Assembly: GCA_037903355.1 (NCBI GenBank)
Contig: JBAJFE010000062.1
Span: forward strand, 620,001 to 684,000
DNA length: 64,000 nt
Source: Trichuris trichiura
Lineage: Eukaryota > Nematoda > Enoplea > Trichinellida > Trichuridae
Direction of reading: 5' to 3'
Shown: in pieces, positions 6,953-34,241 of the stretch
How the letters are laid out: the number at the start of each line of letters is the position of its first letter
How positions within the stretch are numbered: position 1 is the stretch's first letter
Made by a program: the position numbers and the translations under genes
The notes under the pieces: generated by a model
The model's input: only the letters and a program-made list of their open reading frames with translations
Databases searched by the model: none
Told to the model about the DNA's origin: nothing

Positions 6953-9900
6953 TCACTTGTCGCACGACTCTATGTCACGGTCAATACTAAGCCATCTTCG
7001 CTTGTAGATCAAAGCAGTAGCTCCTGCGAGGGCGAGGATAATTGGTGTTAAAAAGGCAAAGAAAAGTGCACCGCCTGCTAAGGAGATAGTCAAGGCGATG
7101 ATGCTAAGAACTACAAATGCGGCTGACGCAAGTGACAGGTAGAAGACATAGTAGGTCCTTTGCAAGTAACTCTCTGCTGTTATAGCGTCTGTTTCTCTGG
7201 GTTCGAAATGACTATTAATTATGCTTTTCACGCTGGCCAGCCTGGAATCATTATATGACTTCCATTCAAAGTGTAAATGATTTGCACTGGAGTTGAGATT
7301 CAAATTGTAAAGGCAAGACTTGCGAGGGACCATTAGAAAATATATTTTTAGTTTCACCCACGCGTTGTCCGTCTCGTGAGGATGGTAAATTTGTCTATTG
7401 AATAGCTAAAGTGGCAAGCATTAGCGACTACATTAAAGGCATAATGTACCTTGTGTTTTTGTCTCATCTCTTTTCGCAATTGATCAATATCGCATTTCTT
7501 CCCATTAACAGGTAGCAGCAATGAGTAAAAATAGTCTTCTACGTAAGTAACGCTCGAGTTTTGAAGCTTTCTGTCGTTTTTAGGTTTTCGGTAAAACTAT
7601 AACGAAGCATGACAAGAGAAAAAACGATCGGATGTGTAAAGCTTTTCTTTTGCTAACCAGCGGAAATGGTCCGAGCGATGTCCAGGTTTCAGCGCTGCCA
7701 GCGAGCAGAATTTCCCTTCTGTTTCCATTATCTCTGGAAAAGTTTAGCTGTTAACTGAACGCTACCATTGCTCATGCGACGTTTTCAGAGCTATGACTGT
7801 TTGAATAAGGGGCGCACTGTAATAATATCCATCAACAGTTTGTGTTTAACCGATCAAAAACTGAAAAAGTTTCAATTCTGCATGCAGAACCTCAGGGAAC
7901 GTCATGAGCGACGTTCTGCACATAGGCAATGATGGAAAATGGTGAAAATTGAAAAAGAGTAACTAGTGGCTGCAAGTGTAGTTTGCTTTGTGGTTTTAAC
8001 ATCTGAAGCTTGTGATAGAGCGCCTGTTCCTCATAAGCCCAAAGGAAAGCTTCACTTTTTACCTATAAATACATGAAGACATGTAGCCTAAATGGCTGAA
8101 TATGCTTGCACTCGCATTTTTTTGACCTCTTGCTTTGCTGACGGCTAGTTGTAATGTTTATGCGTTCGGAACAGCATCTGAGCTGTATGGCCGGAACAGG
8201 AAATGCCGTGCGCCTAACTCCCTACGCGGAAAGCTTATGAAACCTTTAACGTGAGGTACTACCCTGCCTTCCTGAGGCGACTGTTTCTCTGTGAGCTACC
8301 CGCCTGTCATTTCTCTGAACGTATCCTCATTGCTTCGAGTTTCTACGCGACAGCCATGAGAAACCAGCGTACCTCTGTCGCTCACCAGCAGCTCGACTAC
8401 CTTGATAAGTAAGCAAAGCATTTTGATTTCGCCGAACGCAGGCTACTCTCCGCAGGATACAGTTGGCTTAGGACCCTGCGTGACACCCACCAGGAATAAG
8501 AAGTAACTAGGTTCCGTCACTCTGTCATGCTGGACAGGACAGAGTTTCAAGGGAAAATTCTATATAAAACCATGCTCCCGTGACCAAAAGGGTTTCACCT
8601 TCAAAAAGAAGACATTATGCTTGAATCAGACGCATTCATCACAATACATAGTTGACCGGAAAAAAATGCTCTCAATCCTGTGTGCGAAAAAAGTTAGCGG
8701 CGGAATAGTTTCCTTTCCATCTGTTTTCCTTCAATTGTTAGGTAAGTGGTTGTTTATCTTTAAGAGCTAAGTTTTATTAAAGAGTAATATATGTAAGGCC
8801 ACCATGGTCAGAAGCTGGTTGAGAAGTCAAAAAGATTGTAGAAAGAATAGTACAGTTGCTGCACAGCGTTTAGCAGGGCTTCCTGGTTCTATTGATCGCT
8901 GTTTTGTCACCGATTACGCGACAAACCAAAAGAATTGAGCTGCGACCAACCCAGGGTTAAAAAGTTGGAAATACGAATTAATACAGGCTTCTGCTTCAAT
9001 CAGTTATAGTATCTTGATCAATATATGAACATTTCTAAATTTGTTCTATTATTTTGAATAGCGCTGGTACTGCGAGCTACAACATATAATACATGATGTT
9101 GTATAGCTGAGCTCCTACTTTCAACAAGTATTTCTTTGCAATCACTCTAACCATATAATTAGGTTCTATCGAGTAGGTGGGAAGATATGTACCTGAGAAG
9201 GATAGGAAGTTCCATTAAGTTTTCACCCAAATGCTTCAATACACCTTGTCCAAGAATACCTGCTCTGCCTTGAGGATTCATATGTTCGCTCTGATGTGAT
9301 TGTCCCATCGTCTTCATCAATTCTTGACCTGAATAACCGAAATTAGTGATGGTCGGAATAAACTTGCAGGTACGCGTACGCATCGAAGGGTCAGTTGGAA
9401 CGGGATAATATAGGAGTAATTGCTTCTTCCATTTCTCGATTCCCACTGGTATTAGCAAACGGTAGTACTGAAAAGTACAGAGGTAGTTAAGCATTTAATT
9501 CAAACCTGAAAGAGGCGTACCTTCGTATCCGCATACCTCCATAGCTTGCAAACGTCAATTGTTGCTATGGTCCATTCTTCCTATTGCAAGAACGATTATT
9601 TCCTTGATAGGCAATGTACTGGTCAATTTATAGGCCTACAGTAATGTAAATAATGATAAGTATTGTTATTCACATCAATCTTTCCCGATGATGGCGGGTA
9701 AAGCTTGGACCCGAAAGCTACGGCGATATGCAAACTTGTTGTGCGTTCACTAACGGAATATTTTTCGCAACAGTCCGCACTCAACATGCACTATCCTATA
9801 ACAAGATGTTATATTTTCAAGATGGTTAGTTCACAAAAAATTAAGTTTAGTAACTTTTGACTTGTTGCAAACTGTCCAGTAGTTCGCTGATGCCTGTATT

Positions 9901-12355
9901 TTATGGTCAAAGAACAATATTGTAATCGTACCTCCTCTGATATCTTTCCTGTAATGTAGCAGACAGCTCCATCGAGTTTTCGATGCGCTGTTCCGTTGAG
10001 GCGGCCAATCCAGGAGCAGTAAGCGCTGATTGGAGGGTCTGATTTGCAGGAGTGTTGTGAGTTCTGCAACAGAAGAGCTTTAGGTTACCGATAGCGATTC
10101 ATTGCAATAGTTTGTTATTAGAAGTACACGCAGCTTAAGCAATGAGTTCTGTTATTTTTACAAGCGTCACGAAGAGCACGGATGCGCTGTCGGTGTCCAA
10201 CGGTGTGCAACTCTCTTAGGAGTTGTTGCCGTTTACTCTGACATTGAGGCTACATGTTGCCTAGCGTTTTTCCTTCTCCGTTATTTCAACAGCAGGCGAA
10301 CTGTGGACAGAAATGGCTCCGTTTGAGAGTTTCGTAGCATCCTTAGGTGGCTTCCTCAGTAGAAAAATTTGTAGCCAGTTAATGCCTTCATTTTAGGTTG
10401 CTGATGCGAGATTATGAAAGCTCGGAAAGAAACATATAAGATTAGTCGTTTATTGGTCACGAATGAGCTGACTTGACTGACAGTTATCCTTGCTTTCTTA
10501 GTCTCTGTGTATTGCAGTGCTTTAGATCAGCCATTCTCAACCTTTTCTGCGCTAGGCCCCCCTTGGAAGGTGTCTTCAGGTGCCAGGCCCCCCTTTTCCT
10601 ATTGGTCGATTAATTTTTGCGTTTTTTGTATAGGAGCCAATCAGCTTTCAACGGCAACCTCCTAGTATCAAGTTAATGCAATGATACAATGCGAATATAT
10701 AGTCGTCAAATCATTTGAAAAGAGCCCTTGGGGTTCTTCGAAACTAACAATGAAACAATTTCGTCGAGTCGAGTGAGAATTTATGCCAATCCTCTATAAA
10801 GGGATGCTGCTAAGGGTTAACCAATCCTTTATAGAGGACTGGCATAAATTTTCACCCTTCCGATCTACCTAACTACGCTTGTTCCAATAAGGCTTTTCAG
10901 CCCCCCTTGACGGCCTCCTGGCCCCCCCTCTGAAAAATTTTCGATTTCGGCCCCCCCTGACACCCTCTCGGCCCCCCTTGGGGGCCCCAGGCCCCCCGTT
11001 GAGAATGGCTGCTTTAGATGTTTCCTAAGCTAATATAACAAGTGCAATTAATTGAATAGCTCAGATATCAAGTGAATTAGTCGAGTTTATATCATATTCT
11101 GCTGAAAAACTGTTGGCTAACTAAATGTGGAACGGTAAGAAAGAAACACGTACAACAAATCCGTAAAAATAAGTGTTTTCTCAATGTAGCAACATGCAAG
11201 ACTACGTGCTTCTACTTGTACCTGCTTTCTGTTTTATTGTACTTGGACGTAGAGGTAATGAAAGACGCAGAGTGGTCGTGTGAGTGAGAGCTGCGCTCTG
11301 TGATAACCACTTCGCCTTAAAGCACTTGGGATTGGTTCGAACGAATTCCGTCATTCTTGACAGCACTAATAGAAGAGGTTGGCATGAATAGAAAACATAG
11401 TACCCAGCGTTCAGGCGTTAGAACTCGGTATATTTGAAGTAAGCGAACGTTGCGGTGTGATTACTCATTTATGATTTTCAAAATGTTTTCCTAACATAAG
11501 AGATTTTTGCTGAGTACACTGTTCATATTATTAGTAATAATCAAATTGTTGTAACAGTACGCTTTTACCTGTTTTAGGGAAAACGTTACTGTAAACATGA
11601 AAATTATTATTTGCCTACTTGCGCCTAAGCAGAGCATTTTCTTCGATGACCATCATTCGTAATGGTAGGAAACTATTTATAGTATATTTTGTTGTGCGTT
11701 TGGGATTAGGGTCAAAAATCCCTAATAGGTCGAAAATAAACTGTTAAGTTTTACCTTGGGACAGTTGTGCACATCTAAGTAAGGAATGTATTTGTGTAGA
11801 GGCATTATTATATTGGTCTTGTTTGTCAGGTCAGTAAGTTCGAACAGTGAAAATGCAGAGTAGCAACTGTTTATTCGTCTGAATGAGGACTAAGTTTAGT
11901 GCAGTGACAGTGCTTACCTTTTGGCAGTTTCGTATGTGAACTCGCATGTGCATTATAACTTTAGTTCTTCCAGTGTCCTTGCACAACGCTACAAAAATTA
12001 GCTCGTCCAGGGTAACATTCGAATATTGATGTATCATCTTTGCCAGTTCCGCCAAAACATTTCTAGCGACGGGTTTCCATGGCGATTCTTTCTGACGTGG
12101 TGGCGGCTGGGGTTGTGGAAGCAATTCTGCTATACTCTCCGCTAAATTTTCTATCACCTTCTGGTTTGGTTCTGTTACGCTCTTGTTTTGGCACTAAGAA
12201 ATTTGGAAAAGCGGTCACAATTTTTTTAACTTTTCAGAATTTGACTAGATCATTAAGGTAGGTTTAACAGACGATGTACTCGAACAATCGATTACCTTCT
12301 GAGTTGATAACAATGGAAATAGCAGAAGTAAAATGCAGTATGGATTCAGTTTCAT
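6953..12355 (-). CDS. Cystatin / NUDT9-H membrane protein, paralogue 1 (minus strand)
   Basis: Nine exons join in phase: 12355-12296, 12193-11918, 10063-9932, 9580-9521, 9467-9374, 9328-9193, 7733-7658, 7596-7450 and 7405-6953, giving about 477 residues. Exon 1 is a signal peptide (MKLNPYCILLLLFPLLSTQK). Exons 2-3 form a cystatin-like domain with four cysteines (VALCKD, RNCQK, HSCKSD..AYCSW, AVCYIT). Exons 4-9 are NUDT9-H-like: PQGRAGILGQGVL in exon 6 and HPHETDNAWV in exon 9. The normal Nudix box REFGEE is replaced by VEDYFYSLL. The C-terminus has two close hydrophobic segments (about SLASAAFVVLSIIALTI and LFFAFLTPIILALAG), then a basic/acidic tail ending SCDK. A hAT-like insertion sits in the intron between exons 2 and 3. 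It is predicted to be an extracellular or lumenal, membrane-anchored protein; ADP-ribose binding is inference from the family. Confidence 0.72.
10528..11011. mobile_element. Non-autonomous hAT-like element with 8-bp target duplication
   Basis: The 484-bp element has terminal inverted repeats CAGCCATTCTCAAC / GTTGAGAATGGCTG. It is flanked on both sides by the direct repeat CTTTAGAT (10520-10527 and 11012-11019), an 8-bp duplication as made by hAT transposases. Subterminal regions contain many GGCCCCCC words. Internally there is a second inverted repeat of about 30 bp on each side (about 10769-10856). No open frame of note. It lies in an intron of the minus-strand cystatin/NUDT9-H gene. Confidence 0.85.
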
Positions 12356-12397
12356 TTCACTTTTTGGCAGTTGAGCTTACACGATTTCCTATCAGAA

Positions 12398-12404
12398 TTT
12401 TATA
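12398..12404 (-). promoter_or_regulatory. TATA box of cystatin/NUDT9-H paralogue 1
   Basis: The minus strand reads TATAAAA about 43 bp upstream of the ATG at 12355, a normal spacing for a short leader. Confidence 0.5.
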
Positions 12405-13065
12405 CAATTGTAAGGTTTACTTTTGCCTTCAGTCTGTCATGGGTTTTCTTAAACGTTGGAAAAGCGTTCCAAACACCTGTCAGAAAATAAATGAGAAATT
12501 TTAATTAGGTAGCGTTACATTTATGCAGTCGTTTGCCGTTACTTTTTCATATGCGAAGCTAGTGAGGTTTTGTTCAATAGAAAAATGTCCTCTCTTTCAG
12601 GTTTGAGAATTGGTACAGTTTGGATGATTTATTTTAAAACAAAGAGGATTGGAACATCGGCGTGATAAGTAGGGTATGAACGTGAACTTTACACGGAAAT
12701 GGAGCGGAAGAAGAAGCCTACGTGGGTGCTACAGGTTGTTTGCAAGCGTTTTGCAAGAAAAGTATCAAAAACACTTAAAAAATTTGAATTTTATGTTCAC
12801 TCTGGTGAACATATGGCAAGTCGCCCAAAATATGTAGCAACATTTTTGCGAACTTAAATTCTCCTAGCTCAAATGGCCAATCTGCAGCAGGGTTTTAAAA
12901 ACTATGGCAGAAGTCTCCTAAAGAAGCATCCCAGCACCGACATAGCAGCATGGAGCCCCTTGCTTCTTTACGGTGGCCTTAGACCTGGCATGTATTAATA
13001 TTCAAAAATTGGTGGTAAACTGGGCCATAATGTTATACGCTGAACATTGGCAAATAAAAATAAAT

Positions 13066-13285
13066 TACCGTATATTACAGCCTATAGAACACCCCTCTAC
13101 CTAAGTAATGGGTAGTAATGATTGGCCCAGTTAATCACTTAGTGAGTCTAATTGAGGTAGAAAAAGTGCTGTTCAGCTCATAGGACTAATAAGTCGAATG
13201 GGAGCCTAGGAAGTACCAACTGGGCCAATTATTACCACACATTACTTAGGTAGAGGGGTGTTCTTATAGGCCGTAATATACGGTA
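13066..13285. mobile_element. 220-bp MITE, copy 1
   Basis: Terminal inverted repeats of about 45 bp begin TACCGTATATTAC and contain ACCCCTCTACCTAAGTAAT. The copy at 45153-45373 is nearly the same throughout. The outermost bases are TA, consistent with a TA target as for Tc1/mariner-like elements. No coding capacity. Confidence 0.85.
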
Positions 13286-13294
13286 GTCGTAAAT

Positions 13295-13744
13295 ATGACC
13301 GTCGTCATATACGCCAGTATGTACGGGATTTTAACCTTTCAGTTCATTGAAGCGCCGCCAAAACTAATGTTACCGAGTGAAAGCGTTGGTTCTTCGATCC
13401 ACGTTATCACAGCTCATTGGAAGGGAATGCCGCTGAGAGTACGAACTTTTAAACGCACTATTGAAAGAAAAGTAGTTTCGCTTAAATGTATGGCCACAGA
13501 CCATGAAGGCTTACTCCATGGAAGCACAACGCATCGCAACAAGACAATGCGAAAATCAGGTAATGACATGAAAACAAAACCGCAACCAAAAGGAACCCTT
13601 GGAAACAGGTGGCCAAACATAGTGGCACCTCAAATGTGCCAGAAAGAGACGGGCCATTGGCGACAGTCTCCTGATAAAATATGTCGTTGCAGGACAGTGG
13701 AAATTTACCTGGTGGAAAAGTGCCGCAAGGGAAGCAAGCTTTGA
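13295..13744 (+). CDS. Unrecognised open frame (149 codons)
   Basis: An ATG lies 10 bp after the MITE end. The frame is basic and Cys-containing near its end (CRCRTVEIYLVEKC). I do not recognise it. A good splice acceptor (ACCTTTCAG) is present at about 13341 and a possible donor (GTAATG) at about 13560, so it could be an internal exon of a plus-strand gene instead of a whole gene, or simply chance. An overlapping minus-strand frame of similar length (13482-13868) weakens the case further. Confidence 0.2.
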   Translation: MTVVIYASMYGILTFQFIEAPPKLMLPSESVGSSIHVITAHWKGMPLRVRTFKRTIERKVVSLKCMATDHEGLLHGSTTHRNKTMRKSGNDMKTKPQPKGTLGNRWPNIVAPQMCQKETGHWRQSPDKICRCRTVEIYLVEKCRKGSKL

Positions 13745-14893: not shown

Positions 14894-14981
14894 GAAAACA
14901 TATGGTCCCGTACAAAAACATCACATATTGTAGATATAGCTTTTTGCTACGGGACTATAGAGTTTTATCTACTTCTTTTAA

Positions 14982-15706: not shown

Positions 15707-15722
15707 TGCGGCGAAGGTTGAA

Positions 15723-18700
15723 ATGAAACTTACTAGTGCAAGTACAATGTTACTTATATTGTGCGTCGTCTTGTCATTTGTGTATTCATCATTCAGTCAA
15801 GGAAAGGTGATCATTAGCAATTGGGATAGGCTTATACGGGTGACGGGGCTTCGTTACCATTTCAGTCAAGAACCTTTGATAATGGCATGTTTGAAAGATT
15901 GGAATATTATTTTTAGCAAGCTCCAGACCCCAGCCAAGAGCAACGATTGGAAAAACTAACGGGGCGCTTCGGAAGCTTCCTGTACCCTGCAGATGAAAGT
16001 CAAAATAGTAGCGAAGTGGAGAAATGGGACGATGCCAACAAGACAACAGCAGCAACAAACGTCTTTCACTTGTTGCTGGCAAAGCTAGATCAGTCACAGA
16101 AATTTAACTTTTCTGAATTAATTGGTGGCTTCAAATGCATTGATCAAAACAAGGAACAGCATGCTATAATGCACTTGAAGTTGCTGAGACATGGGAAATG
16201 CCACAGGGTATACAATATGTAAATACCAACAAATTCAACTTTAGCACTAAAGGAATCTACACATTTCTAACTGTTCTTCTCTGCAATGAAACGACTGATG
16301 CAGAAGCATTCACAACCTAAACCGTGCCAATGCCCAGTCTCAGTTTTTCGTTCATGCAACCCCTTTTTCTGGTCCAACGTTGGATTGTTAAAATTTCTTA
16401 GTTCGCCTCAATGCGAAAGACTACATCGCAAGCGATTTCGAATGCTTAAGAGTTAGCAAGTAATATGTCGCTTTACTACAGCGTTATCTTCGCTGAATTT
16501 TGTTTCTTTTGAGTTCAGAATGAGATCAATAGAAGCAGGTGACTGTACCTGCTAGACAGCACCGACCTGGCGGTTCAATATTGTTTTTAGGTACCTTCAT
16601 TTAATATCATCTAACTGAAGGAAAAGTTAAGTGTTAGTATTCTTTGAAGAGTTTTTTACAGGCTAACTTCTGAGATTCTTCGTGGGTTTAAAGGGGCAGT
16701 TTTGTTGGGCGACAAGAGAAAAGCCATTGTTTGGCAAGTCTTGTGCATGGCATCGGCTTCAACGTTTCTAATTTTAAGAAAACTAGACACATTTAACAGT
16801 TTTGTAAATGCCTTAAATCATGTCCATGTTATAGCAACTGAAGCGCAAGATGCGCAGCGGGACCATACCTGCTAAGTGATTGTGCAGTTCTTTTTACTTG
16901 AGTAGGATGCTTACAACTAAAGGTGATTCATCCTGCAAATACTGATAGTACTGTACTAAAAATAAAACAGGCATAAAACACTCGCTGAATTCAAAGATGA
17001 ATTTATCCTTTTCAAAAATTCTCTGAGCTAAAGTACCGCATTTGACGTGTATCTATAAAAGCGAGGAACACGGCTAAAAACTTCAACCTGATGCTTTTAA
17101 ATGTTTAATTTTATGAAGCAAGATTTCTGTTTCTGAACTGAGAGCTTTTGGCATTTAAAACTTTGACGACGTAATTCGCTAGAAAATTTTTTGAATGCAT
17201 TAGATCTAACTGAGTTTAGTCAAGTTGCGATGCAGATTTCTCTGCTCATCTTAGCACTGTTCCTATGAAATGTAGATATAAACAAACCCTGATTAGACAT
17301 TCTGAGGGGCATGGATTTGCATTGTTCTATCAGTAATACACCGAATAATGAGAGATAGTGCTAATTACGTTCATAAAAGGGCGTTCCCTTAAGTTCGTAG
17401 TACTGCCATTCTCCTTGAAGCAAAGATCCCCTAGAATATGAATTCACATTCCATTGAAGCCTTTCGCACAGGTTTTTTCTGAACTAATTGTTTCATGTTG
17501 ACTTTTCTCATTTACGTTAGGAAAGGTGTTTCTTCGAGGAAACGGTGTGCGCCGCAATAATTCTTTGTCTTCTTACTGCAGTTCTCAATATTTCATCAAT
17601 GTCCATCAGAACAAAACGTATATTGCACGTGGATTGGAACCCTGCGTGAGAGCATTCCAAACAAAACGTCTGGATATTCGTGCTTTGAATCAAGTGAAGT
17701 TAGAAAAGAGGTAAGACAACTCTTCCATCTTTCCATTCTGAAGTATCAAAGCGCATGTTGAGTAAAGAGTTTTCATATTTCGACAAGTAGAACAACTTTT
17801 GTTTTCAAACGCAATAACGCTTTTATCTGAACTTTTAAACATTCAGCATCTTCCGTTTTCGTCTATGTAACTTCCTGCAAGTGCTGCTGGTCATTGCCGC
17901 ATTGCGTCTATCTCGCAGAAAGCAAGCCGTGATAATCAGTCAAGTACGATATTACCTATTCACAAAACAAAGATTAGTAAAACGGAATAATGTATTTGTG
18001 ATTCAAGGATGGCAATGTAATAGTTTGCGAGATCGTTTCTTGCAACCGAGTGATTCAATGAATTATTGCTGTTAGCACAAACAAGACATTCTCTGGATAC
18101 ATTTTTTCAAAAATTAATACATTTTACACGGCTAATTTTTTCTGATGTAAATGAGAAACCCACCATGGCATGAATGAATAGCAGTTGCATTTCAGAGAAA
18201 AACTTAGTCTGAATTTTTATTTTCTGCGATTTAGTATGAAGAAGAATTGGCAAATTTGAACCCGTGTGCAGTGTGGAAATATAATGCTGAGGGAGTAAGA
18301 AATTCATCAGCAATAAGTGACTGCATATTGATGAATGGCTTATGCAGGCCTACCGTTTGCCAATTCTTGCCGACATGTTACCGTGGAAGAAAAACTTTCT
18401 GTTGTACCAGCCGCCCGTAGTTTTCCTCAAAGGTAGCGTCTTCGTCGCTTTTGAATTTCTTACCACAATTTTGATCTACTGCAGATGAGAAGGGACCAGT
18501 AGGTGGGCAAGGTTTATCAGCAGCTCTTAAAAATCCTGAAGGCAGAACTGGCATTGCTGGCCGAGGTCTGCTGATGAAGTGGGGTGAAAACAAAGTGGAA
18601 ATTCCCATAATAATCAAGTAAGTTAATTCTGTCAATTATCTCTTTTGCTGGCAAGACTCGCATGAAATCAGTTAAAACGAAATTTGAGCAGTTTCTAAAA

Positions 18701-20328
18701 GTAGTGACGTAGTATGAGTTCGATACTATGTATTTTTTATAACGGAGATTTCGATGCCTGACGGCAACAGCATTTTTGCAGGGAAATTCTCTTTAGCTGA
18801 AAAAACATTTATTCGCTGAACTGATCATTTTAAAATATGGGCTTTTATTTGTAAGTAACTAAGAAAATCGTTTCGCTCAACAATGTTTGGCTGGTCCAAC
18901 GAAAGTCGTCTTCTCTTAAATATGACTTGTACGAACAATGAATCTTGATGAATTTTGACACCCGTAGGGGGGGGGGTAAAAGGTCAATCTTGAAAGCTCC
19001 ATTTACAAATTCGTGTAAGTTTAAAAGCATCTTTCACTTTTACTTCGCAATGACGAAATATTAGGAAAAGCTGTAACTAACATAATGAAACTTAATTTCA
19101 GTTACGAAAGAAGCTCTATTTTCAAAAAATAATAACTATCTATCATTTCAAACTACACGTAGAACCTACATCGTTTCGAGAACTTTACTCAGCGTTCAAA
19201 ACGCAGTGGTTATTTAGGAATTAAGCCTGCGACAAATAAAATTGTTCTGATAAACCTATGTCATTCTACAAGTTTTATTTGGCTAGAAGTCTTTGCACTC
19301 TGGCTAAGCATTAGAAAGCGTAAGTTAACGTTCTTGACGGAACAAGACTGGGTGGGTTTCATTATGCCACTTAAAACTCCTTTCGGTTTGCTTCGTACGG
19401 CCTACTGACCCATGTAACATCTTGGGACCGAGCTAAATAGCGTTTAACTGAAACTGAAAATACAACATGCCATTTTTGCTTATAATTAAGTTGTTAAATG
19501 ATGCCTTACGCGTCTAAATAGGACAGCATTTGTTCTTTCCATTTGCACATGGATAATGCCCAAACATGAATAGACATTCATAGGTAATTTTTTCAGAGCT
19601 TCGCGCACAAAGGCTGAAGTTCTTATGCGTGGTCGGTATGACAAAGAAAAAGGGGAATCTCCACTGCCAATGGTTCGATGCACGTAACACTTGCTTAAAC
19701 ATTGAAATGAAAGTTTTAGTTTTACAACATTCCAAAGCAGGAAGATTTTCCTGACATCGAATCAATGGAGAAACATTATTACGAAATGGTGGCAACAGAT
19801 CAAAAATATAACTGCACAATGGAAAAGCTCAGGTCTTCTTTCAAGTCCGCAACGAAAGTAATGATACACTGCTAGCATGAGTCATTGTTAAGTGACGTTG
19901 CGGTTTAGCTTACTATTAAGTATTTTCCCCACCCATATGCTACCGACAATGCCTGGATAACAGCAGACATTATTGTTATTGCAACATGTGACGAGCCGTG
20001 CTTCAACTACTTGGACTTAAACGAATCATCGAACAAGTTCCAGTATAGATGGGAAAAATTTAACGACTCTGATATTTATGATATAGATGATCTTGTGAAC
20101 TTACTGCTCAAAAAGCAGCTGACACCTCAAGTATTAGCTGTGTCTTTTGTGTTCAGCAGGATTGCTCACTTTGCCTTCCTCGTTGCGGCAGTTCTGGTCA
20201 GCGTGTTGTTGGCTACTATCTGTGTAGCCTTACTGTTAATTAGCGTTCCAGTTATAATGTTAGTGGCCGCAGCCATTATAGGCTATTATTATATTCGAAA
20301 AGCTATTACAAAATCCTTTGGTCATTGA
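15723..20328 (+). CDS. Cystatin / NUDT9-H membrane protein, paralogue 2
   Basis: Nine exons join in phase: 15723-15806, 15917-16207, 17582-17710, 18235-18294, 18348-18432, 18485-18617, 19597-19672, 19720-19857 and 19909-20328; 471 residues. A signal peptide covers residues 1-26. The cystatin-like domain is about 29-168: a helix near EKWDDANKTT, the strand SELIGGFKC where cystatins have the QxVxG loop, then a four-cysteine pattern including NVYCTWIGTL. The NUDT9-H part is 189-410: NPEGRTGIAGRGLL from 233 and ATDNAWITAD near 343, both close to human NUDT9 motifs, but the REFGEE Nudix box is replaced by MEKHYYEMV. Residues about 419-460 are strongly hydrophobic (two segments around ISVP), followed by a short basic tail. 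AATAAA follows at 20343. Closest relative in the window: paralogue 3, with several identical exon lengths. Enzyme activity is doubtful; ligand binding is inferred. Confidence 0.8.
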
Positions 20329-20342
20329 AAATCAGAAGAGTA

Positions 20343-22378: not shown

Positions 22379-22394
22379 GCTGACGAAGTTGGAA

Positions 22395-25300
22395 ATGAAG
22401 CTTATTCACGTAGCTATCATGCTAATTAAAGCCTGCGTCGTCCTGTCATTTCTAATTTCACAATGCGCCCAAGGAATGGTAATTATTAGCAACTGCGATG
22501 CTTTTACAGAGGTGATGGCGTTTCGTTGCTATTATACCCATACATTTTTGAGAATAACAAGTCTGAACGTTTGGAGCATTATTTTCAGCAAGTACCAGAT
22601 CCTGATCAAGAGAAACGACTCGAAGGCATAGCGAATCGTTTTGGAAACTTTCTGCTGCCTGCTGATAAAAGTCGCAATAGAAGCGAATTGTTGGAATGGA
22701 AAGATGGTCCTAAGACAACCACTGCAGTGAATGTTTTTGAAATGTTGCTGGACAAGCTTAAACACCCACGGAAATTCTCTTTTCTGAAATTGCTTGCTGC
22801 CTCCAAATGCAAAGCTCAAAATGGAGAAGAACATGTGATAATGCAATTGAAGTTGTTAAAAACAGGAAAATGCCACAGGGTATACAACGGGCATTACAGT
22901 AACGCTATGCCTTTCTGACTATCCTTCTCCGCGGTGGGGCGACTGAAACTTCATAACCTAAACCGTGCGCGCCGTGATCTCATTTATCCAATTCTCTTTT
23001 GTTTGTGATCTAATTTCGCACTCGCAAAATTTCTCAGTCTGTCTCGTAGTGTATGAATTCATTGGAACGGTAACAGAAGGTGAAATAATGTTTTTGAATA
23101 AGCAGATAGCGAATAATTTATTAATAATACGTTACCACTTTGGAAATGTAGCTTTTTGTTACGGGACTGTGGGTTTTTATGATTAAATTTTTTCTTCTTA
23201 CGGAATATGTCGCGTTATATAAATGACTTTTAATGTATGCAGCTTTTAGTTTAGTTCTGAATACGTTACAACTTTGCTGAATTTTGCTTCCTTTGACTTT
23301 TGAATAAAGTTGACGACTGGCGCCTACTAAAGAGCGTGAACATAACAGTTAACACTGTAACGCGTCGCAAGTGATGTTCATGTTCATAGGAATGGAGTAA
23401 CAATAGAGGAAGCAAGTGGTAGATATGTTTGTTTATCATTGATTTTGAGCGCGTAAAAAACGTGTCAGAAGGATGAGGTAGTTCTGCTTTTTTATGGGCT
23501 CTTGTAATCATGAGTAGTTCTTTTGCATTCTCTGGCATGTATGAGCGATCCTCAATAAACAGTCTCTTCGGTTGTGTAGGTTGTTCAAGTTTCATTGCCG
23601 TCACTGCGTTACTTTTCTGCCATATTCTTACTTCGCAATGCTTCTACCAGGCATAAGTTAAGTACTAACGCAATTATGTTGGAATTTGTCTCGCTGAACC
23701 GGCGACATATTAGGCGAGAAGGTTCCGTGCTGACTGCACTCGCAAACACAAATTCACTTAATTTCATATAATTTCCAAGTTGTTAGAGTACAAATTATAG
23801 GTGCGCGTCCTCATTATACTGGGAATTTTCACAGAAAGGTTTTCCTTTTTCTTATTTCTGATTCTTAGCTTATTGATTCGTATGTTCATTCCCTTCAAGC
23901 CATTTCCATTAACTTTCTTTTTTTCAGCTTCTAAATTACATTTTTTATTTTTATTTTTTGATTTACTTTTTCAAATTTAATTATTACGAATTATACAATA
24001 TCTTGTTAACTTTTTCTCTTTAAACTGCTTTTTTAAATAGCAGATGTAGTATTAGGCCGTTAATGCGCAACGAGTTAGTCGGACACGTGACAGTGTCTTA
24101 TTCATAATTGCTCATTTGTTCTAATTCAGTTTTTTCAAGCCATGGCAAATTAATCCATAAATAAATTGTTAACAGCAACTAATTGCCATGACATTACGAT
24201 AAGGAAGAAGTTTCGAAATGGTTTTCTTTGGTCGAAATGCTTCGCGCAGACTTGGTTTTCACCCACCTTAACAGTGATTTTATTTCAGAAAACTGTATAG
24301 CGCGATAATCCTTTGCGTAATTATTGCAGATTTCATTCCTGTACGACTGCCCATTAGAACAGAATGTATACTGCACTTGGAGTGGAACCCTGAACGAGTA
24401 TACGCCGAAGAAAACATTTGGATCTTTGTGTTTTGAATCAAACGAAATTCAAGAAAAGGTAACAAAAGTCTTCTGTTTTTCCATTTTGTCATAATAGTCT
24501 ATTTGTTGAGTAAAGAACTTCCTGGTGCGACCGTATGAGCTTGGTATATGTGTAATATAAGCCACTTTAGCTATTCTTTTGAAACCCAGTTTACGATGAA
24601 CAGTTTGTTGGAGACTACAAAATAGGAAATGACGGGTATTTCAGAATTCTACTGTTCCTGTCACCAGTTAACGAATGAATGGCTTGCAAATGGTGATGAC
24701 ACCTGTGCGTCAATTTGCTTTAAGCAAAACGGTTTGTAGAGCATATAGGAACAGACTTTCTCTCAGAATTTACAAGAACGCTATTCACTTGTAAGCTGAG
24801 GGCAATAGCAGTAGATTCCTTAATACTCTATGAATCTGTTTTTTCACTGCCCATAAACTGTATAGCAATAACTTTCTCTCTTCAAAAAAAAATAACTAAA
24901 AAGGTTTATATCGTACACATACGAACGAGAACGTGAAGCCTTGCTTGCTGGAAAGTGAAACCGTTTTTACTTTTCTGTGCCTTTTTTACCTGGAACTTTA
25001 AGCATCCTGCACTTTCCACCATAGTCAAAGTAACTTCCAGTAAAAACGCTGACGTTTAATGACGCCTTGCGTCTATTTCACGAAGTACTGGTTCTGAAGA
25101 ACTGTATCAGATCACGTACCTACACAACAAGGACTAAGAAAATGCGACAGCACTCTTGATATTGAAAAACTGTAAACATAATATTAATAATTTGCCAGAT
25201 TACTAGTTGCAACGAAATATGTGATCGAATGACAGCTGTTAATGCAAAGCAAACATTTCCTAGATACATATTAAAAAGAAAACTTTAACGTATTCCATAC

Positions 25301-27207
25301 TATTCATTTTTCTGGTAACTAACTATGTTTAAGTGGCACCTGTCGCTACAAATACGAATAGTACTTGCAAAAAACGGACTTAACGTGAACTTCCATTTTC
25401 TAAAATTTAGGCTGAGAAAGAACTGGTTAGAATAAATCACTGTGAATTTTGGAAGTATAGCAGCCAAGGGGTAAGGAGGATATCAACGGCAAGTGATGCC
25501 ATCTGCCGACGAATGGCTTTTGCAGGCCCACCGTTTGCCAGTGCCCGCCTTTATGTCACCTTGGGAAACAGAGTTCCATTTGTATGAACCTCCTGTAGCT
25601 TTCCTCAGAGGTGGCTTACTTATCCCTTTATAACATCTTAGTTTTCTTTTGGTGTAATGTAGACGAAAAAGGTCCGCATGGCGGTAAAGGTTTATCAGCA
25701 GCTCCTAAAAATCCTGAAGGCAGAACTGGCATAGCTGGCCGAGGATTGCTGTTGAAATGGGGTGAAAACAAAGTGGAAATTCCCATAGTTATCAGGTATG
25801 TCAATTCTGTTTATTTTTTTCCTCCCGACCGGACAAGCACGCTGTTAGTTAGAAACAATTGTCAGGAATGTGTAATGCTTATGATGGATGAAGCTCATGG
25901 CGCGAATGCTTTATAAGTAGCGAATTCGTTGTCTCACGTTATCAGGCTCTTTTGCAATTCCATCCTTTGCAGATGAAAACCCCTCTGATCCAGTGAAACA
26001 GAGTGTTTAGACAAAGTGGGCAGTTTCTTTTTAACTGCCTGAGAAAATAGTATCACACAGAAAATGTGACTAATTCAACGAAAGTTCTTACCACTGAAAG
26101 AGAAATCATCTGAACGGCAAACAGATGAAATTATTAACATTTGCATGGCAGTCATAGGTGAATATTTTAAATATTAGCACTGAAACGAGACATGCTGATA
26201 CATTTAACAAAGGCTATTAATTTTTGTGAGTATGAAGACAATCGTAGGAATGAAACGCCGGCCATACAACTTTATTATTCGGCATAATTTTTCAACTGTT
26301 TCACCAAGACTTGTTTAGTAAGAGCTCTAAAGTAAAGCACAGTGATCTTTTATTATCTGTGCCATAGAGAGTTATGCGCTTGTACTCGCTGACTTTTAGG
26401 ATTATGACTTACAAAAGTTCAACGTGTAAACGGCAGCAGTGAAACTGAAAGCAGTTCTTTTAGGAAATTAGAAGATGGGATTGAAGTTCTCCTGCGCTAT
26501 CAGTATGATGAAGAAAAGGGAGAGAGTGCGTTACCAATGGTTTAACATTATAACTTGTAACAGTGTCTTAGACAGTTAAGTGAAACATTTAGTTTTACAA
26601 AATTTCCAAGGGAGAGAAGCCGGAATATCCTGATGTGCAAACGTTGGAAGAACATTTTCATGAATTAGTGCAATCTGATAAAAAGTCAGAGTGCTCAGCG
26701 AAAAAGCTCAGATCTTCAATGAAGCTTAGAAGGAGGGTAATAAATTTCAAGTTGAAGAAACTGCTAACTGATACTATTGTTTAGCTGTTCAGCGGATATT
26801 TGGACCATCCGCACACAACTGATAATGCCTGGGTAACAGCAACAGTCTACCTTGTTTCAACAATACAAGAGCCATGTTTCGAGCATTTGGAGTTGCAAAA
26901 ATATTCCAAACAATTCCAGTACAAATGGCAGAAATTTAACAAAACTGAAATTCGTGATATGGAAGACTTAGTAAGAGCATTATTTGCAAGGCACGTGGCG
27001 TCAGAAATATCGGTAGTCAATTTCGCCCATAGTATCGTTGCTTTCATTGCCTTTTTGTTTGCGGCAACTGTAATTGTCATACTTATGTCCACTACAACTG
27101 CAGCATTTGTTCTCTTTGGGCTTCCCGCTGCTATTCTGTTTGTCGCATTCGCAATTACTTTTTACTTTTCCAGAAAATGGATTTCCATACTCAATCGTGT
27201 GCATTAG
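22395..27207 (+). CDS. Cystatin / NUDT9-H membrane protein, paralogue 3
   Basis: Nine exons join in phase: 22395-22478, 22589-22879, 24330-24458, 25411-25470, 25526-25610, 25663-25795, 26464-26539, 26593-26736 and 26785-27207; 474 residues. Exons 1-7 have exactly the same lengths as in paralogue 2. It has a signal peptide, a cystatin-like domain (helix near LEWKDGPKTT; KLLAASKC at the inhibitory-loop position; NVYCTWSGTL), and the NUDT9-H N-lobe beginning HRLPVPAFMSPWETEF, like the start of human NUDT9's fold. NPEGRTGIAGRGLL and GYLDHPHTTDNAWVTA follow. The Nudix box is degenerate (TLEEHFHELV). The C-terminal hydrophobic hairpin (IVAFIAFLFAATVIVILM and FGLPAAILFVAFAITFYF) ends in a short basic tail. 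Overlapping AATAAA signals follow at 27217 and 27222. Confidence 0.8.
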
Positions 27208-27216
27208 ATGCTAACT

Positions 27217-27227
27217 AATAAAATAAA
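27217..27227 (+). terminator. Poly(A) signals of cystatin/NUDT9-H paralogue 3
   Basis: Two overlapping AATAAA words begin 10 bp after the stop codon. Confidence 0.5.
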
Positions 27228-29774
27228 GAAGTGCAAATAACCTGGTCGATTTGGTTTTCAAAGAATAGAAGGAGCACAAACCAGTGTGTTCAAACAGTTG
27301 AGGGAGCGATGTATTGGAGTTTAACAAGTTACAGGCAATCATTCTTTAATATGAACGATATGTTTTCCAAAAAGCTCACGCACGCGCTGTTCGTCTTTAA
27401 AAACGTCATTGTTTTCTTCAAACTATAATCAACTGCGAGCTGAAGCAGATCGCGGTTTTCAATGGTACACGTCATTGTGTCAACAATTGAATGTAAATAT
27501 CGACTGCGACTGACATGCTAATAAGTTCTTATTGTTCTATCTCTGCTTTAAACTAAAGATTTTCAGTTCAAAGAAGTATGCGCAGCTGTAGGCAGAGCCT
27601 CCATGAATGGATCAGTAGAATTTCACCATGTATTCACAGTAGGTTGCACTGGCAAATGGTTTTAAAAAGCGCTCACTTTTCAGACCATCTCTGCATTAAA
27701 GATAATGAATTTGGCTGTCTAACTGATAAATTAAGTTTTGTAGCTCTTTCATAGCAGTCCTATTTTTAAAGTTATCATGTCTGACCTTGTCTCATCCGAC
27801 GCTGGCACGGAATCAGAATACGTTGCACTTTGCTAAGACAGTGATGGTTCTGCGCTAATGACTCTTAATGGGACGGAACAGGAGTTATACAACCAGATGA
27901 GGATATTTATTTCAGCAACTAATTTTCAAGCTACGATCACTAAAAACTGTGCTTGCAAAATGGCGCACTATGAAGTTCATTTGCGTTGATCGCAACGACT
28001 ATACTGAAAGATAAATCATCAAGGGTTTTTATTATTGCGAAATTTCATCAGTCAGCAAGACTCATATTTACGTTTCCCACCTATGAGCTGAGGACTGAAA
28101 TACCATCCTCACGCATCATCAAAATTTCATCAAGGCTGATTTTTGCCATTTTTCTTCAACAAAGACCACCGAAATCAGATATAAACACCTTGCAGAATAA
28201 CCAATCCTGTACTATAGTAGTACGAAGAGATCACATTTTCAAGAAGAGTTCGTATAATGCCAGCAATAATTGCGCTGAAAATTACTCGGTTCTCTTTACG
28301 TTTGTAGACTAACACTGCAGGTAACATTCACAGAAACAAAGCGACATTTCGTCGGCTTAGCATTGCCATGCAGCCATATTTCTTAGCGTTGACAAAGCTA
28401 TGGCGGACATCATCCTTTTTCTAGAGGTAACCATTTTTTTCAACTGATCTTTGCATTTCTATACTGCGGGAGAAAACGCAGCGATTTCGAAGCAGCTCAT
28501 GCATGTCTGCTGGCGGAACATTTGCTTTATGTCAGGAGAATAATGGCTTCAAGAGCTCTTTTAACCTTCATTCTGTTTTTAAACAGGAAGAAAAAAGCCA
28601 TTTATTTTTAAAACGAAAAGGCATGCAGTTTTTGCGGAGCTTTCAGAATAAGCCGGTCTGAGTTATCGACACCCGCAATGATAAGTACTGAAGATGATAG
28701 CACGCATAATTTCTGAGGGCGTATTAAATGGGTTATGTTGACTCAGCAGTTTGACAGTGGATGGTTAGCGCAAAACGAAAAGGCAACCATCATAAGCACG
28801 GTTGCTCATTTTTATTTTTGCACTCGTCTGTATTTGTACACTACCTTCTTTCCTTTCCATCCTAGGCACGGCACCTTTGTATATCTTCTTTCCCAGTCAG
28901 TAGGGTGTAGTGATAAACGTCAAGCTGAAGCGATGCATTAATGCCTCGAAGCTCTCTGCGGCAGCGGCGCAAAAGTCAGAGTGAGCAGAGAGCTTACTAC
29001 CACATATCTTGTGGAGGAAAGCGAGATCTTTTTCAGTAAAATTAAAGAAGCGTTATATTAATAGATTACATATGTTACTTAGAAGAACATGAGTACTTGT
29101 TTTCTTCAGTGGCGATAATGGGCGATAAAACTGATCTAAAAGCCTTGCAAGAACTGCAGTTTTTTCTATATCAACATAAGCAGTTTTCTTCATCCTTTAA
29201 AAAACCGGAACTTGCTTTTTGATTATAGACGGTAGTTTCTGTCACTGGAAAAATGTCATTTTGTTAAATAAATGCTCGATTATAGTTTGTTAAGCAGACG
29301 CTTCTTCATTTTGTCATATGTATGATCTGGTATAACTACATCTGTAACAGAATTCATATTTCTCTTTTTCTTATTTTCCCCATTAGGTAGGTAGTTGAAA
29401 ATCAACGGACTCACAATTGGTCAATGTGTAATCCTGCTCTGTCTAGAGAGTAAACTCAGGGATGGAAGTATTGGTAAAGGAACTGCCGCAGGAAAAAAAG
29501 GTGAATAAATTTATTTTAAAATGTTTCTTGCGCAACAACCATTCGTCGCAAGCCTGCGCACGCGAAGAAAATGAATGGAGAAACGGTTGTAAACAGTAGA
29601 CTTGTATGATTCAATGGTAAGCAGAAGGACATGAAATGAGTTTTTGTGATTTCATTGTATGTATTTACCGCATGTTTACCCGTTGTGGAAAACGTTTAAA
29701 TCAACAATGAAATTATATAACTCAGCGGCAAAAAAATGAATGCATTCGCTTAAGAAAGAAAAGGAGGCGTTGAA
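27228..29774. other. Intergenic spacer between paralogues 3 and 4
   Basis: About 2.5 kb without a recognised gene. The open frames here are short, show no family likeness and lack splice partners. Confidence 0.35.
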
Positions 29775-32700
29775 ATGAAGCTGTTTTTGCAGCCAATCGT
29801 TGTGCTGTTACTTTTACTGTTGGTAGACGGAAAGGTATTGTGCAGTCATTCAAACCTTCAATGCAATAGTTACAATTCCAGCAAACATGTTGTGAAACTT
29901 TACTATCAAAATTAAAAATTTATAGGCGCCGATCACAGGAAGTTGTAAGAACCTACTTATAGGTGCAGTCGCGCGGTGAAACAGAAAAAGTGTTGCGGGA
30001 ATTATCCCTCAAGTATAAAGATTTCCTCCCACCTATAACACGCACAAATAGTAAGCAGCGATACGGACAATGGAATGAAACAAAGAAAAGAACTGTTGGA
30101 GAAAACATTTTCCGCAGTTTGAATCCTCTTTTCACTATCAGCGGAGACTATATGTTCCAGAAGTTACTTTCTGGTATGGATTGCCCTGCTTTCAATGGAA
30201 CATTTGCCCTAGTGCAACTAAAAGTTCTAAGACGCGTGAATTGTGAGAAGGTACGTATCCTGAAATTACAAAGTTGAGTGAGAACTATAACTCCTTATTG
30301 TGGAGTGCAGTTTAATGCTAAATGGAAGCATGGCAAACTGTTATTTTGACGTAAAAGGTTGATTGAAAAAAAATCCTATTTCACGTTCATTCGTTTTTAG
30401 TTTGCCAAAAAGAATGGCTTGAACACTTAGGGGATAGAATAATCCTATTAGTTACGCTGATATTCGCGTCTGGACCTAGAGAGTTCAGACAATGCTGTTT
30501 TGCTCTACTACCCGCCAATAAACAATCCAGTCGTGCTAATTATAGTTTGTTCTTTAGGATTGTATAACAGTATAACAATATGAAATGGTTTTCAATGAGT
30601 TGAAAAATGCATGAATGTGTGTTCAATTTTAAAACACAATGTTAGGTCACTTCTAGTGCAGTACAGCTTGAAAAGAGCCGTTGTTCTTTATTAAATTTTT
30701 CAAACACATGTTGACACGCACACTGTAGTGCAAAATACAGGTGGCCCTCGTTATCCGCGGTTAATTCGTCCAACGTTTTGAGCATTTTACCGCGTTAAGT
30801 TGAATTCTGCGTTATATAGGATACCTTACAAAAAGGCCAAATATCTTGTATTCTAGCTGCGTATTTCGTCCTGTCCGCTTGAATTCCTTCGGGAACGGTT
30901 ATCATACTTAATGATCCTTCGAAGCTTGGTACTAGGCTGTCGGTAATCTAGCTACGAGATAAAGCCATTAATGAGACTGCGCTTGTCCGATAGGATAGCC
31001 ATCAGAGTCCAGGCCGTTAGATACAAGAAGGGATGAAAGATGCTCTTTCTTTAAACGTCTGGGAAACGCCTTGTTTTAATGAGCTAAGCGATGTACTGTT
31101 GCGCGGAATGGGTACAGAGCAGGGGAAATATAAAATACATAGGCGCATTTAAGCAATAGTGAAAATCACACAGAACACATCCACGTCTACGGCAGAAACG
31201 TTTGGGGCATCATGAATCAATTTATCCACTTTCTGTAGGTGCGCGCAGATCTCCTGGAGAACGTGCAGTCAACAAGTTTCTTGAACTTGCTGGTAGCAAA
31301 GCTTCTCGCCTTAAAATGCTAGTCTCCGCAGCTGCTGGAGTTTTTTTCTAAAACATTGTTATAGGGAGCTGTCTCTGCCTTTTCTTCGCTTGATCGAGTA
31401 AGTCTTGTAGCGGCTTCAACGAAGCTGTTATTCCTCGTGTAGCCATGATGCCACGTTCCGTGGATGGATCGTATCCAGCAATCATATCCTTCAGGACCTG
31501 CGCTTGCCGGAAAATAGCCAGCAGTGCGCATGTTTTTGTGAAAAGATGACGTCACTATTTCACGTCGGACGAACCGCGTTGTGTAGAATCCTCGGATAAC
31601 GAGGACCGCCTGTATATTCATAAACGCCACTGAACAAGCGGGCACCTTTGCTTCGTTTAACTGCCTGCAATCCAAAGGTAGTTTCAACAGATAAATAAAT
31701 GGCCAGTGAAATCTTGAAGTGATACGAAATAGGGTATACTTATTGCCTTATGTTTTCAGCTTATTTTCGTTTACTGAAACACTTTGGATGAAATAGCTGA
31801 TTCCGTCTCGTAAAGCTGTCATACGCTATTCCTTTTAGTTAATAAAGTTATGAAAAAAACCCATTTTCCAACAAAGTAAGGTAAAGCCAATAAAACCTGA
31901 AGGATTACTGACAGCCATGTTTAGGAATTAGTTGCCTTTTACATTTGGTGAAAGTAGTTGCATCAGTACAGCATCCTGTTTAATTTGGCAAACGGCTAAG
32001 TGCAGTTTGCTGTGAAAGCGTGACTGTGACGGAAATTATTGTGAACGAAATTGCTTTTTATTGAAGTAAATTTAAAACAGGAACAATAAATGAATAATGC
32101 GAGGATGCACGTATAACTGCCCAAGGACACAAGCATCACAGGTGTTTAGCAAAATATCCACGCAAATGAAAAACAAAAAAATTCAGGAAGAGATTTGCAA
32201 ATAAGTCTTACCTATTATTATTGATACTGACACGTATGTGTCAAAGCAACGTAATCAGTTTGTGTTTTAAATGGCTGTAATAAATTTTGACACATTATTT
32301 TCAGCGAATTTTCAATAAGAAGTGCACCATGAATAATCCAAGGCGAGTCTACTGTTCCTGGATTGGTACGCTCATAAACGACATGCCCGCAATGATGCTA
32401 GGTGCAATCTGCTTCCAATCACGATCTATTTCCATTGAGGTAATTGTGGTTCCATCAGAAAGCAGTGCTACATTTGGTTCACAGTTCATGCCTTTTGATA
32501 GGCTAGTGAACTGAAAATACATAAAAGCTCTTTTAAAAAAGGGCTTGAACGACATGGAAATTTTAGTTCCCATGTAAAAAATCTTGAATTGCACTTTATT
32601 AACTTGAAAGTGGCTTATTATACGCTGTCCTAATAAGGCAGCAGCAAAGGAAATCCAACGACGTTGATGCCAGTAATTTAGGAAGAGTTGGAAATGGGAA

Positions 32701-34241
32701 CAGTAGACATATGCGACAGCTGGAGATACAGCAATACTAAGGTAAACGTACTGCCGCTATTGCATGAGTATAGAATCAGCCTTCCATCGTTGCAGTTCTA
32801 CCGTTTGAAAATTCCTAAACGTAAGTCATCGTGGGCTGCTAGGTTTGTTTTGTATGATCCACCGGTATATGATTCTTCAAGTAAATGCTTGAACGTTTTG
32901 TCAGTTAGACTACTTTACCTACTTTCCTTCAGGTAAACAAAGGCTGAGGAGGGGAAGTATATATGTCAATGGCTACACCCATCCCCTGAACCCTGGAGGC
33001 CGGACTGGTATTGTCGGGAACGGTATGCTCAGAAATATGGGAAAGAATAAGATGCAGATGTTAATGATTCTCAGGTATTTCATTTGAACCTTTCATATAA
33101 GCTTTCGTTAAGCTTTCCTAGGCTGTTGCAAAGTAAAAACGGTCGGTTGACTATAGTAACATTTTATTCTCGTCTTCATGCTTAGCAGATTCATTAAATG
33201 AGTATTACTACTAAGTTAGTCGCTACTGAGTTATTGAATGCTGACAAAAGCAGCGCGGTTGTATTTCATACTGATCATTCTAGGAATAAATATCAGGCTG
33301 TCTAGATGAGAGAGCTGCTGTTTAAGCCAAATCGGTTTTGTTCTGCATAGCCATGAACTTAGTTAGTTCTGGAGCTAGACTCACTTACGGATGAAGTTTA
33401 CCAACGTCCTTGCAAGAAATCAGTTTAGTCATGCAGATGGCAAATTAGAAGGCAAGCAACGCTGCAACTATTTCTTACAGGCTGCATAATTTTAAAAACC
33501 ACTGGCAAGTCACTGCTCCACAGAACGGTGGATCAGTAAGCTATCATATAGAGCTGAAAGTTTTGTAACTGGCCTAAAGTTGGCCACAGTCAATGCCACT
33601 TTAACCTTTTTCGCAGCGTTAGAGTTAATACAGTAATAATTCTTGGGTCTTCCTTTGATTCGTAATTCCTTTCCAGTTCATTAGAGCTTATTTATGAAAT
33701 AATGTTGCAATCGACAAATAAAATATAGTGACGTTTTGCAGAAATAACAACGGATCAAAAGAAGTTTTGCGTTCTGACCATTATCAAAAAGGGAACTCAA
33801 AGGCATCTTTGCCAATGGTTGGAACATGTTAGAACATTACAATTATTTTCATAGAATTGTGTTAAGTTTTACAAGAAGCTTAACAATTCTGCTGCAGCAC
33901 AGCTTCCTGCTGAACCAACTATGGAAGAATACTTTCATGCTATTGTTAAACCAGAACATAAGAAATCTTGTTCCAAAGAAAAGCTAAAATCCATTATTGA
34001 TCGAAATCGCAAGGTGAGGTATAACTTCTTCACGCAGCTACTGGCTTATATGACAGTTTAGAGGTTTACCTATAGTGGTTACTTCGCTCATCCTAACGCT
34101 ACCGACAACGCGTGGGTGGAAACCACTATATATTTAATTGAAACGAAACGGGAATCCTGCTTCAGTCATTTGGATTTGACGCAAGAAGGAAATTATATGA
34201 ATTATCAGTGGAAAGCCGCAAGTGACGTTAAACTTGAGTGA
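29775..34241 (+). CDS. Cystatin / NUDT9-H secreted protein, paralogue 4 (no in-frame membrane anchor)
   Basis: Nine exons join in phase: 29775-29834, 29963-30250, 32305-32439, 32682-32741, 32796-32880, 32933-33074, 33742-33817, 33867-34013 and 34062-34241; about 390 residues. Exon 1 is a signal peptide (MKLFLQPIVVLLLLLLVDGK). The cystatin-like domain has KLLSGMDC and RVYCSWIGTL. The NUDT9-H part has NPGGRTGIVGNGML and GYFAHPNATDNAWVET. The Nudix box is replaced by MEEYFHAIV. Unlike paralogues 1-3 the frame stops soon after WKAASDVKLE. A GTGAGT donor overlaps the stop, but I found no acceptor that continues in phase. A hydrophobic stretch resembling the family's anchor lies in another frame at about 34305-34460. 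So it is either a secreted form or a gene losing its 3' end. A pogo-like insertion lies in the intron between exons 2 and 3. Confidence 0.7.
30738..31612. mobile_element. pogo/Tigger-like non-autonomous element in an intron
   Basis: The 875-bp segment has inverted ends CAGGTGGCCCTCGTTATCCG / CGGATAACGAGGACCGCCTG, flanked by TA on each side. There is no recognisable transposase. It lies in the second intron of cystatin/NUDT9-H paralogue 4 and contributes to that intron's length (about 2 kb). Confidence 0.75.

Follow-up and report, generated by a model that had tools for sequence, protein, structure and literature searches.

The window analyzed here, a 64,000-nucleotide stretch of the whipworm Trichuris trichiura (C26:620001-684000 of the 72.7 Mb assembly), harbors clustered genes whose products open with a signal-peptide-like stretch and a cystatin-like domain, continue into a domain homologous to NUDT9 and in most cases end in a hydrophobic C-terminus. 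Models of four complete genes were built by homology-guided splicing: g1 on the minus strand (6953-12355), and g2 (15723-20328), g3 (22395-27207) and g4 (29775-34241) on the plus strand. Their coordinates, and those of the first two exons of a fifth gene, g5 (62768-63257), reproduce the positions given in a preliminary description of this DNA. Each of g1-g4 has nine exons with open frames, the models being exact to the base, with GT-AG at every internal splice site. The intron phases after exons 1-8 (0,0,0,0,1,2,0,0) are identical in all four genes, as is the 76 bp length of exon 7, and the intron between exons 2 and 3 measures 1.4-2.1 kb. Gene g5 starts at 62768, runs past the window edge and is completed by the flanking sequence; the same nine-exon order recurs in three more neighbors, g6, g7 and g8. 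The phases of g1-g4 were imposed in the exon search for g5-g8, so that only exon order and similarity are independent observations for these genes. The end of g5 exon 1 was placed at a GC donor by analogy; an alternative GT donor 12 bp downstream also keeps the frame. The modeled proteins are 390-479 residues long. Between g2 and g3, nonsynonymous divergence (dN) lies below synonymous divergence (dS) over the whole protein (0.36 and 1.16), in exons 2-3 (0.31 and 0.99) and in exons 4-9 (0.39 and 1.35), so that the cystatin-like and NUDT9-like halves are both under purifying selection; silent sites were saturated in the other five gene pairs tried.

Exon 1 encodes the signal-peptide-like start in g1 (12296-12355, minus strand, 20 residues), g2 (15723-15806, 28 residues), g3 (22395-22478, 28 residues), g4 (29775-29834, 20 residues) and, with the GC donor assumed, g5 (62768-62827), the last four on the plus strand. 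Hydropathy windows, the sole basis of this call, bear out the signal peptide of the preliminary description in part: a 19-residue window above 1.6 starts in exon 1 of five of the eight genes (g2, g3, g4, g5 and g8) and not in that of g1, g6 or g7. Windows of 10 residues at the starts of g5-g8 reach 2.8-3.6. Judged by the hydropathy of exon 1, the proteins probably enter the secretory pathway. The membrane anchor that had been proposed is likewise a feature of most copies: seven of the eight models have a hydrophobic tail, 45-60 residues long (in g1, residues 409-460, at about 7001-7156; in g2 at about 20128-20307; in g3 at about 26995-27171), which would tether the protein to a membrane, and g4 ends early without one.

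The cystatin-like domain is encoded by exons 2 and 3, which lie at 11918-12193 (with Cys 91 and 110) and 9932-10063 (Cys 118, 128 and 147) on the minus strand in g1, and on the plus strand at 15917-16207 and 17582-17710 in g2, 22589-22879 and 24330-24458 in g3, and 29963-30250 and 32305-32439 in g4; g5 exon 2 occupies 62970-63257, plus strand, exons 3-9 of that gene (locus L049) falling beyond the window. In predicted structures, which are models of relatives and not of the window's own proteins, this domain consists of a helix and a four-stranded sheet of the cystatin type, which suggests a type-2-cystatin-like fold. A model of a Trichinella relative shows the fold clearly, and its first 16 structural matches all belong to the cystatin superfamily; one of a Trichuris suis relative shows it weakly, with other folds tying. 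Cystatin E/M, also in its complex with legumain, is among the best structural matches; the absence of a family from these matches does not exclude it. The domain had been described as having four cysteines, but five invariant ones were found instead, plus one in the linker exon. Four of the five follow the cystatin order and are invariant in all 13 rows of our alignment A6, the fifth being extra. The last two cysteines are separated by 18 residues, versus 19 in canonical cystatin, and the first two by 7-8 versus 14; we infer that pairing is 1-2 and 3-4. A phase-0 intron lies near the cystatin intron position. Both inhibitory motifs, QxVxG and PW, are absent from the cystatin-like domain of all ten whipworm proteins compared (g1-g8 and two from T. 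suis), and pattern matches to them in g5 and in the Trichinella predictions P0033-P0036 fall outside the domain. Among the genome's canonical cystatins, QxVxG is present in all eight loci read and PW in all three second exons found. At the level of sequence, none of g1-g4 was matched by the Pfam Cystatin model (E limit 10, with the filters of HMMER applied), and Cystatin was not among the Pfam families matched by 26 aligned proteins, three of which matched Cathelicidins (best E 0.044). A profile search of A6 against PDB sequences detected no cystatin relation. Scores from hhalign against the genome's own cystatins were 12.6 for the whole set (best shuffled 16.0) and 17.0 for Trichinella alone (best shuffled 18.5), with 100 shuffles each.

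Exons 4-9 encode the NUDT9-like half. In g1, on the minus strand, exons 4-6 (9521-9580, 9380-9467 and 9193-9328) contain the linker and the N-terminal NUDT9 part with NPQGRAG, exons 7-8 (7658-7733 and 7450-7596) a degenerate Nudix-box region, and exon 9 (6953-7405) the block HPHETDNAW ahead of the hydrophobic stretch. On the plus strand, exons 4-8 lie at 18235-18294, 18348-18432, 18485-18617, 19597-19672 and 19720-19857 in g2, at 25411-25470, 25526-25610, 25663-25795, 26464-26539 and 26593-26736 in g3, and at 32682-32741, 32796-32880, 32933-33074, 33742-33817 and 33867-34013 in g4. They are followed by exon 9 with HPYATDNAW and the tail in g2 (19909-20328), HPHTTDNAW and the tail in g3 (26785-27207), and HPNATDNAW and a stop before any tail in g4 (34062-34241). 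The one model searched, g3, matched TRPM2 NUDT9-H (1.8e-11) and human NUDT9 (6.9e-10) among PDB sequences over residues 183-385, and also proteins with precomputed NUDIX/PF25969 domains in a large protein set. Foldseek ranked NUDT9 (1qvj) first for the models of the T. suis relative (prob 1.00, E 3.2e-3) and of the Trichinella zimbabwensis relative (prob 1.00, E 8.7e-9). The family shares with human NUDT9 and TRPM2 NUDT9-H the GRTG and TDNAW blocks and the fold. NUDT9 is a mitochondrial protein with its Nudix box intact, and TRPM2 is a channel whose NUDT9-H domain faces the cytosol. Neither the channel transmembrane domain nor the melastatin domain of TRPM2 was found in our models, whose hydrophobic stretches lie only at the start and the end.

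The TDNAW block and the GRTG Arg are kept in all ten whipworm proteins, the GRTG Thr in six. Of the two motifs first reported for the cluster, HPxxTDNAW is present in each of g1-g4, while NPxGRTGIxGRGLL is exact in g2 and g3 but reads NPQGRAGILGQGVL in g1 and NPGGRTGIVGNGML in g4. The Nudix box, GX5EX7REUXEEXGU, was found in none of the ten whipworm and none of 16 Trichinella proteins; a slightly looser pattern finds seven of eight canonical controls. The ADP-ribose contacts of human NUDT9, including the role of Arg273, are described in the available portion of PMC5473349. All ten whipworm proteins lack the equivalent of this pocket residue, and in all ten the Asp two positions earlier is replaced as well; the nine Trichinella proteins compared, of which eight have the cystatin-like part and P0038 has no match to it, all keep the Arg. 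The Tyr321 and His324 columns, in a stretch that aligns poorly, are kept in neither genus save for one Tyr in g2, and nothing was drawn from the poorly aligned Glu234 column.

That these domains form one polypeptide had been proposed from the window; gene predictions in T. suis and Trichinella that span the junction bear this out, and the arrangement is conserved in clade I nematodes. Two T. suis proteins annotated as hypothetical, M513_11180 and M513_11177 (P0019 and P0020), are direct relatives of g1, aligning over 100% of its length at 63 and 60% identity, and are without a precomputed Pfam domain. In addition, a T. zimbabwensis query of 470 residues that contains the cystatin-like part is covered to 85-100% by 15 predicted Trichinella proteins (the source of the query excluded); in P0025, P0026, P0029, P0031, P0032 and P0036 that part is incomplete as aligned, and P0038 and P0039 match the NUDT9 half only. 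The T. suis and Trichinella proteins are independent annotations, but both are gene predictions. The T. suis relatives came from an alignment search that returned four proteins; in the search with g3 as a single protein, which returned 18, T. zimbabwensis was the sole nematode named and T. suis was absent. Structure prediction, named earlier as a possible source of refutation, gave both folds in the models of relatives. The Trichinella proteins (P0015 and P0022-P0036), automatically named "ADP-ribose pyrophosphatase, mitochondrial" or "TRPM2", share the cysteines of the cystatin domain (each in seven or eight of eight), the NUDT9-like domain and, in complete ones, the tail. They differ in predicted length (400-819 residues, often 480-530) and in keeping DxRNTDNAW. 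Two of them, P0015 (T. zimbabwensis, 810 residues) and P0032 (T. nelsoni, 819 residues), look as if the prediction had run on into an unrelated neighbor; a long extra stretch common to both is C-terminal in one and N-terminal in the other.

Further cysteines distinguish the genera. Those at g1 positions 311 and 356 are present in all ten whipworm proteins and none of eight Trichinella proteins, those in the columns of g1 31 and 223 in all eight Trichinella and none of the whipworm proteins, and a cysteine in the hydrophobic tail in eight of eight and one of ten, respectively. Such genus-specific conserved sets fit disulfides formed in an oxidizing compartment, the pairing being putative. The linker cysteine occurs in all ten whipworm and seven of eight Trichinella proteins, and four of eight canonical NUDT9 proteins have a cysteine in the same column.

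Exon-level matches merged by a 3.5 kb rule, ignoring strand, gave at least 36 NUDT9-like loci on 13 contigs of the T. trichiura genome, some of the matches with in-frame stops. The exon-3 signature was found in all eight modeled genes and at a locus near C26:500 kb, weakly near a gene at C26:617 kb (E 0.05), and also on contigs C62 (L027) and C16 (L036). Outside C26 and C62, 19 dispersed exon-6 loci were considered in a scan for the signature on both strands, also with a looser pattern; one, L032, was set aside for having almost no upstream DNA. Only L036 of the remaining 18 has the signature and 17 are without it, in a test limited by short flanks and divergence. A lone extra stretch resembling cystatin exon 2 lies between g6 and g7 (C26:697048-697218). 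Canonical cystatins are represented by 25 exon matches, 24 of them above the Pfam cut-off, on C7, C11, C12, C1 and other contigs, many of them clustered; these include the eight read for QxVxG. A neighboring cystatin and Nudix pair on C5, considered as an ancestral fusion, was rejected as two unrelated genes about 2.5 kb apart, which we take to be a stefin-type cystatin and a NUDT7/8-like gene.

The window includes several other features. Long single open frames matching Fn1_2 (PF23003) lie on the minus strand at 43366-44454, 46742-47830 and 52676-53806 (E 8e-32 to 1e-38), with a fragment at 36128-36514 (3e-11); over 300 nucleotides, those at 46.7 and 52.6 kb share 92% identity. Two tandem copies of barrier-to-autointegration factor (38438-38737 and 38940-39239, plus strand) are 94% identical over 300 nucleotides. 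The minus strand also carries a DDE transposase reading frame with a Tc5-type DNA-binding domain (3292-4674, DDE_1 3e-47), a piece of a Pao retrotransposon peptidase (58936-59247, Peptidase_A17 2e-17) and two transfer RNA genes (39517-39589 and 41892-41964).

Proteins comparable with each half have been described in Trichinella spiralis. Thirteen NUDT9-like proteins are reported there, nine of them in secretions; only one of the thirteen retains the Nudix motif and catalytic residues, the proteins are extended at the N- and C-termini, with predicted transmembrane parts, and ADP-ribose binding has been proposed for them (PMC11731790). One, GP53/Ts53, is reported to be anti-inflammatory in mice by a mechanism that is hypothetical (PMC11731790). 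The whipworm genes resemble this family in their NUDT9 blocks, lost Nudix motif, C-terminal hydrophobic extension (seven of eight, not g4) and expansion. They differ in also being without the pocket Arg, in a comparison made here with Trichinella species other than T. spiralis. No cystatin-like domain is named in PMC11731790, which nowhere uses the word "cystatin". Four proteins named Nudt9 are reported from vesicles, one at 27 kDa and the others at 54-59 kDa (PMC10604534). TsNd, a 415-residue T. spiralis protein recognized in secreted antigens (PMC4287505, PMC4382852), is similar by description in being Nudix-related, in its predicted C-terminal transmembrane part and as an antigen in secretions; compared on the same basis, it differs in a Nudix motif reported at 226-244 and in having no predicted signal peptide. 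On the cystatin side, MCD-1/SML-2 of T. spiralis is a secreted multi-cystatin-like protein with degenerate type-2 domains (PMC2680962). It shares with the whipworm domain this degenerate type-2-like character and an intron 4 or 5 residues past the first Cys, but has two or three cystatin-like repeats and, in the portion available, no mention of a NUDT9 domain. No description of a cystatin-NUDT9 fusion was found among the best-ranked open-licence PMC papers, nor in the accessible parts of PMC12451359, PMC10763447, PMC13143021 and PMC5389931, and the literature search found no mention of the T. suis locus names. The view that the family is undescribed holds, among these papers, for the joined form, but not for secreted NUDT9-like proteins, already known in T. 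spiralis (PMC11731790). New here are the cystatin-like nature of the N-terminal extension, without both inhibitory motifs, and the pocket Arg lost in whipworm copies and kept in Trichinella.

We consider it reasonably probable that these genes represent a family of the Trichinellida in which a single polypeptide joins a type-2-cystatin-like domain to a NUDT9-homology domain, behind a signal-peptide-like start and mostly ahead of a hydrophobic membrane segment, and which enters the secretory pathway and works by binding, the whipworm ligand probably being other than ADP-ribose. Both domains would then be exposed to the lumen or the cell exterior, with conserved disulfides holding them. Because the classical active motifs are gone from both domains, binding, rather than catalysis or protease inhibition, appears most likely. 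The parasite might display the two-domain ectodomain on its membranes or on vesicles, or else release it as a soluble protein, g4 having no tail. Trichinella copies, with the pocket Arg kept, may bind ADP-ribose; for whipworm copies, with a changed pocket, the partner would probably be a different ligand or a protein. We infer location, ligand and function alike, and a role at the host interface may be drawn by analogy with Trichinella secretions. A bolder form of this proposal, which we advance tentatively as somewhat doubtful, is that the protein is a Trichinellida-specific ectodomain of a dead cystatin and a dead NUDT9 pseudoenzyme, retooled in whipworms from ADP-ribose to another ligand or a host protein, tandem-duplicated and carried on membranes or vesicles.

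The preliminary description had suggested the sensing or sequestering of ADP-ribose. Such a sponge, in which the dead NUDT9 domain binds ADP-ribose uncut and so damps host inflammation linked to TRPM2 or PARP, has been proposed for T. spiralis in the available text of PMC11731790, and it accords with the GRTG Arg and TDNAW block of all ten whipworm proteins and with the pocket Arg of all nine Trichinella copies. However, loss of the Nudix box and the Arg273 equivalent weakens the idea for these genes and argues against simple sequestration in this cluster: that Arg and the Asp two residues earlier are replaced in every whipworm protein, and mutation of TRPM2 Arg1433 lowered channel responses (PMC5473349, available portion). 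The Tyr321 and His324 columns point the same way, although with poor alignment and without being kept in Trichinella either. We therefore regard the sponge as an unlikely, if still serious, account. Quite improbable is the reading that the cystatin-like domain blocks host or parasite cathepsins or legumain while the NUDT9 domain serves just to anchor or orient it. The cystatin-like fold and the match to cystatin E/M, including the legumain complex, speak for it, but of the protease-inhibitor-like module originally suggested only the fold stands: QxVxG and PW are missing from the domain in all ten whipworm proteins, and MCD-1, also degenerate, is reported not to inhibit papain (PMC2680962, available portion, citing Robinson 2007).

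The N-terminal domain could also be a helix-plus-four-strand fold that resembles cystatin without common descent. The sequence-profile relation is not significant, the T. suis model matches other folds equally well, and the spacing of the first two paired cysteines differs in whipworms; but the uniform run of cystatin-superfamily matches to the Trichinella model, the order of the cysteines, the 18 versus 19 residues between the last two and the phase-0 intron near the cystatin position favor descent, and we think convergence improbable, to about the same degree as the sponge or slightly more so. A wrong joining of two genes, one with the cystatin-like exons and one with the NUDT9-like exons, would be compatible with the 1.4-2.1 kb intron between exons 2 and 3 of g1-g4, and the fusion is known from gene predictions alone. 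However, the exon order is the same in eight neighboring genes, and the independent T. suis and Trichinella annotations, though predictions too, span the junction; we give this explanation very little credence.

For this cystatin-NUDT9 family, the automatic names (mitochondrial ADP-ribose pyrophosphatase, TRPM2) are misleading. The presence of the cystatin-like domain in two genera, together with their differing nucleotide pockets, provides domain boundaries for expression, and the pocket difference makes the ADP-ribose-sponge mechanism directly testable by comparison between whipworm and Trichinella proteins.

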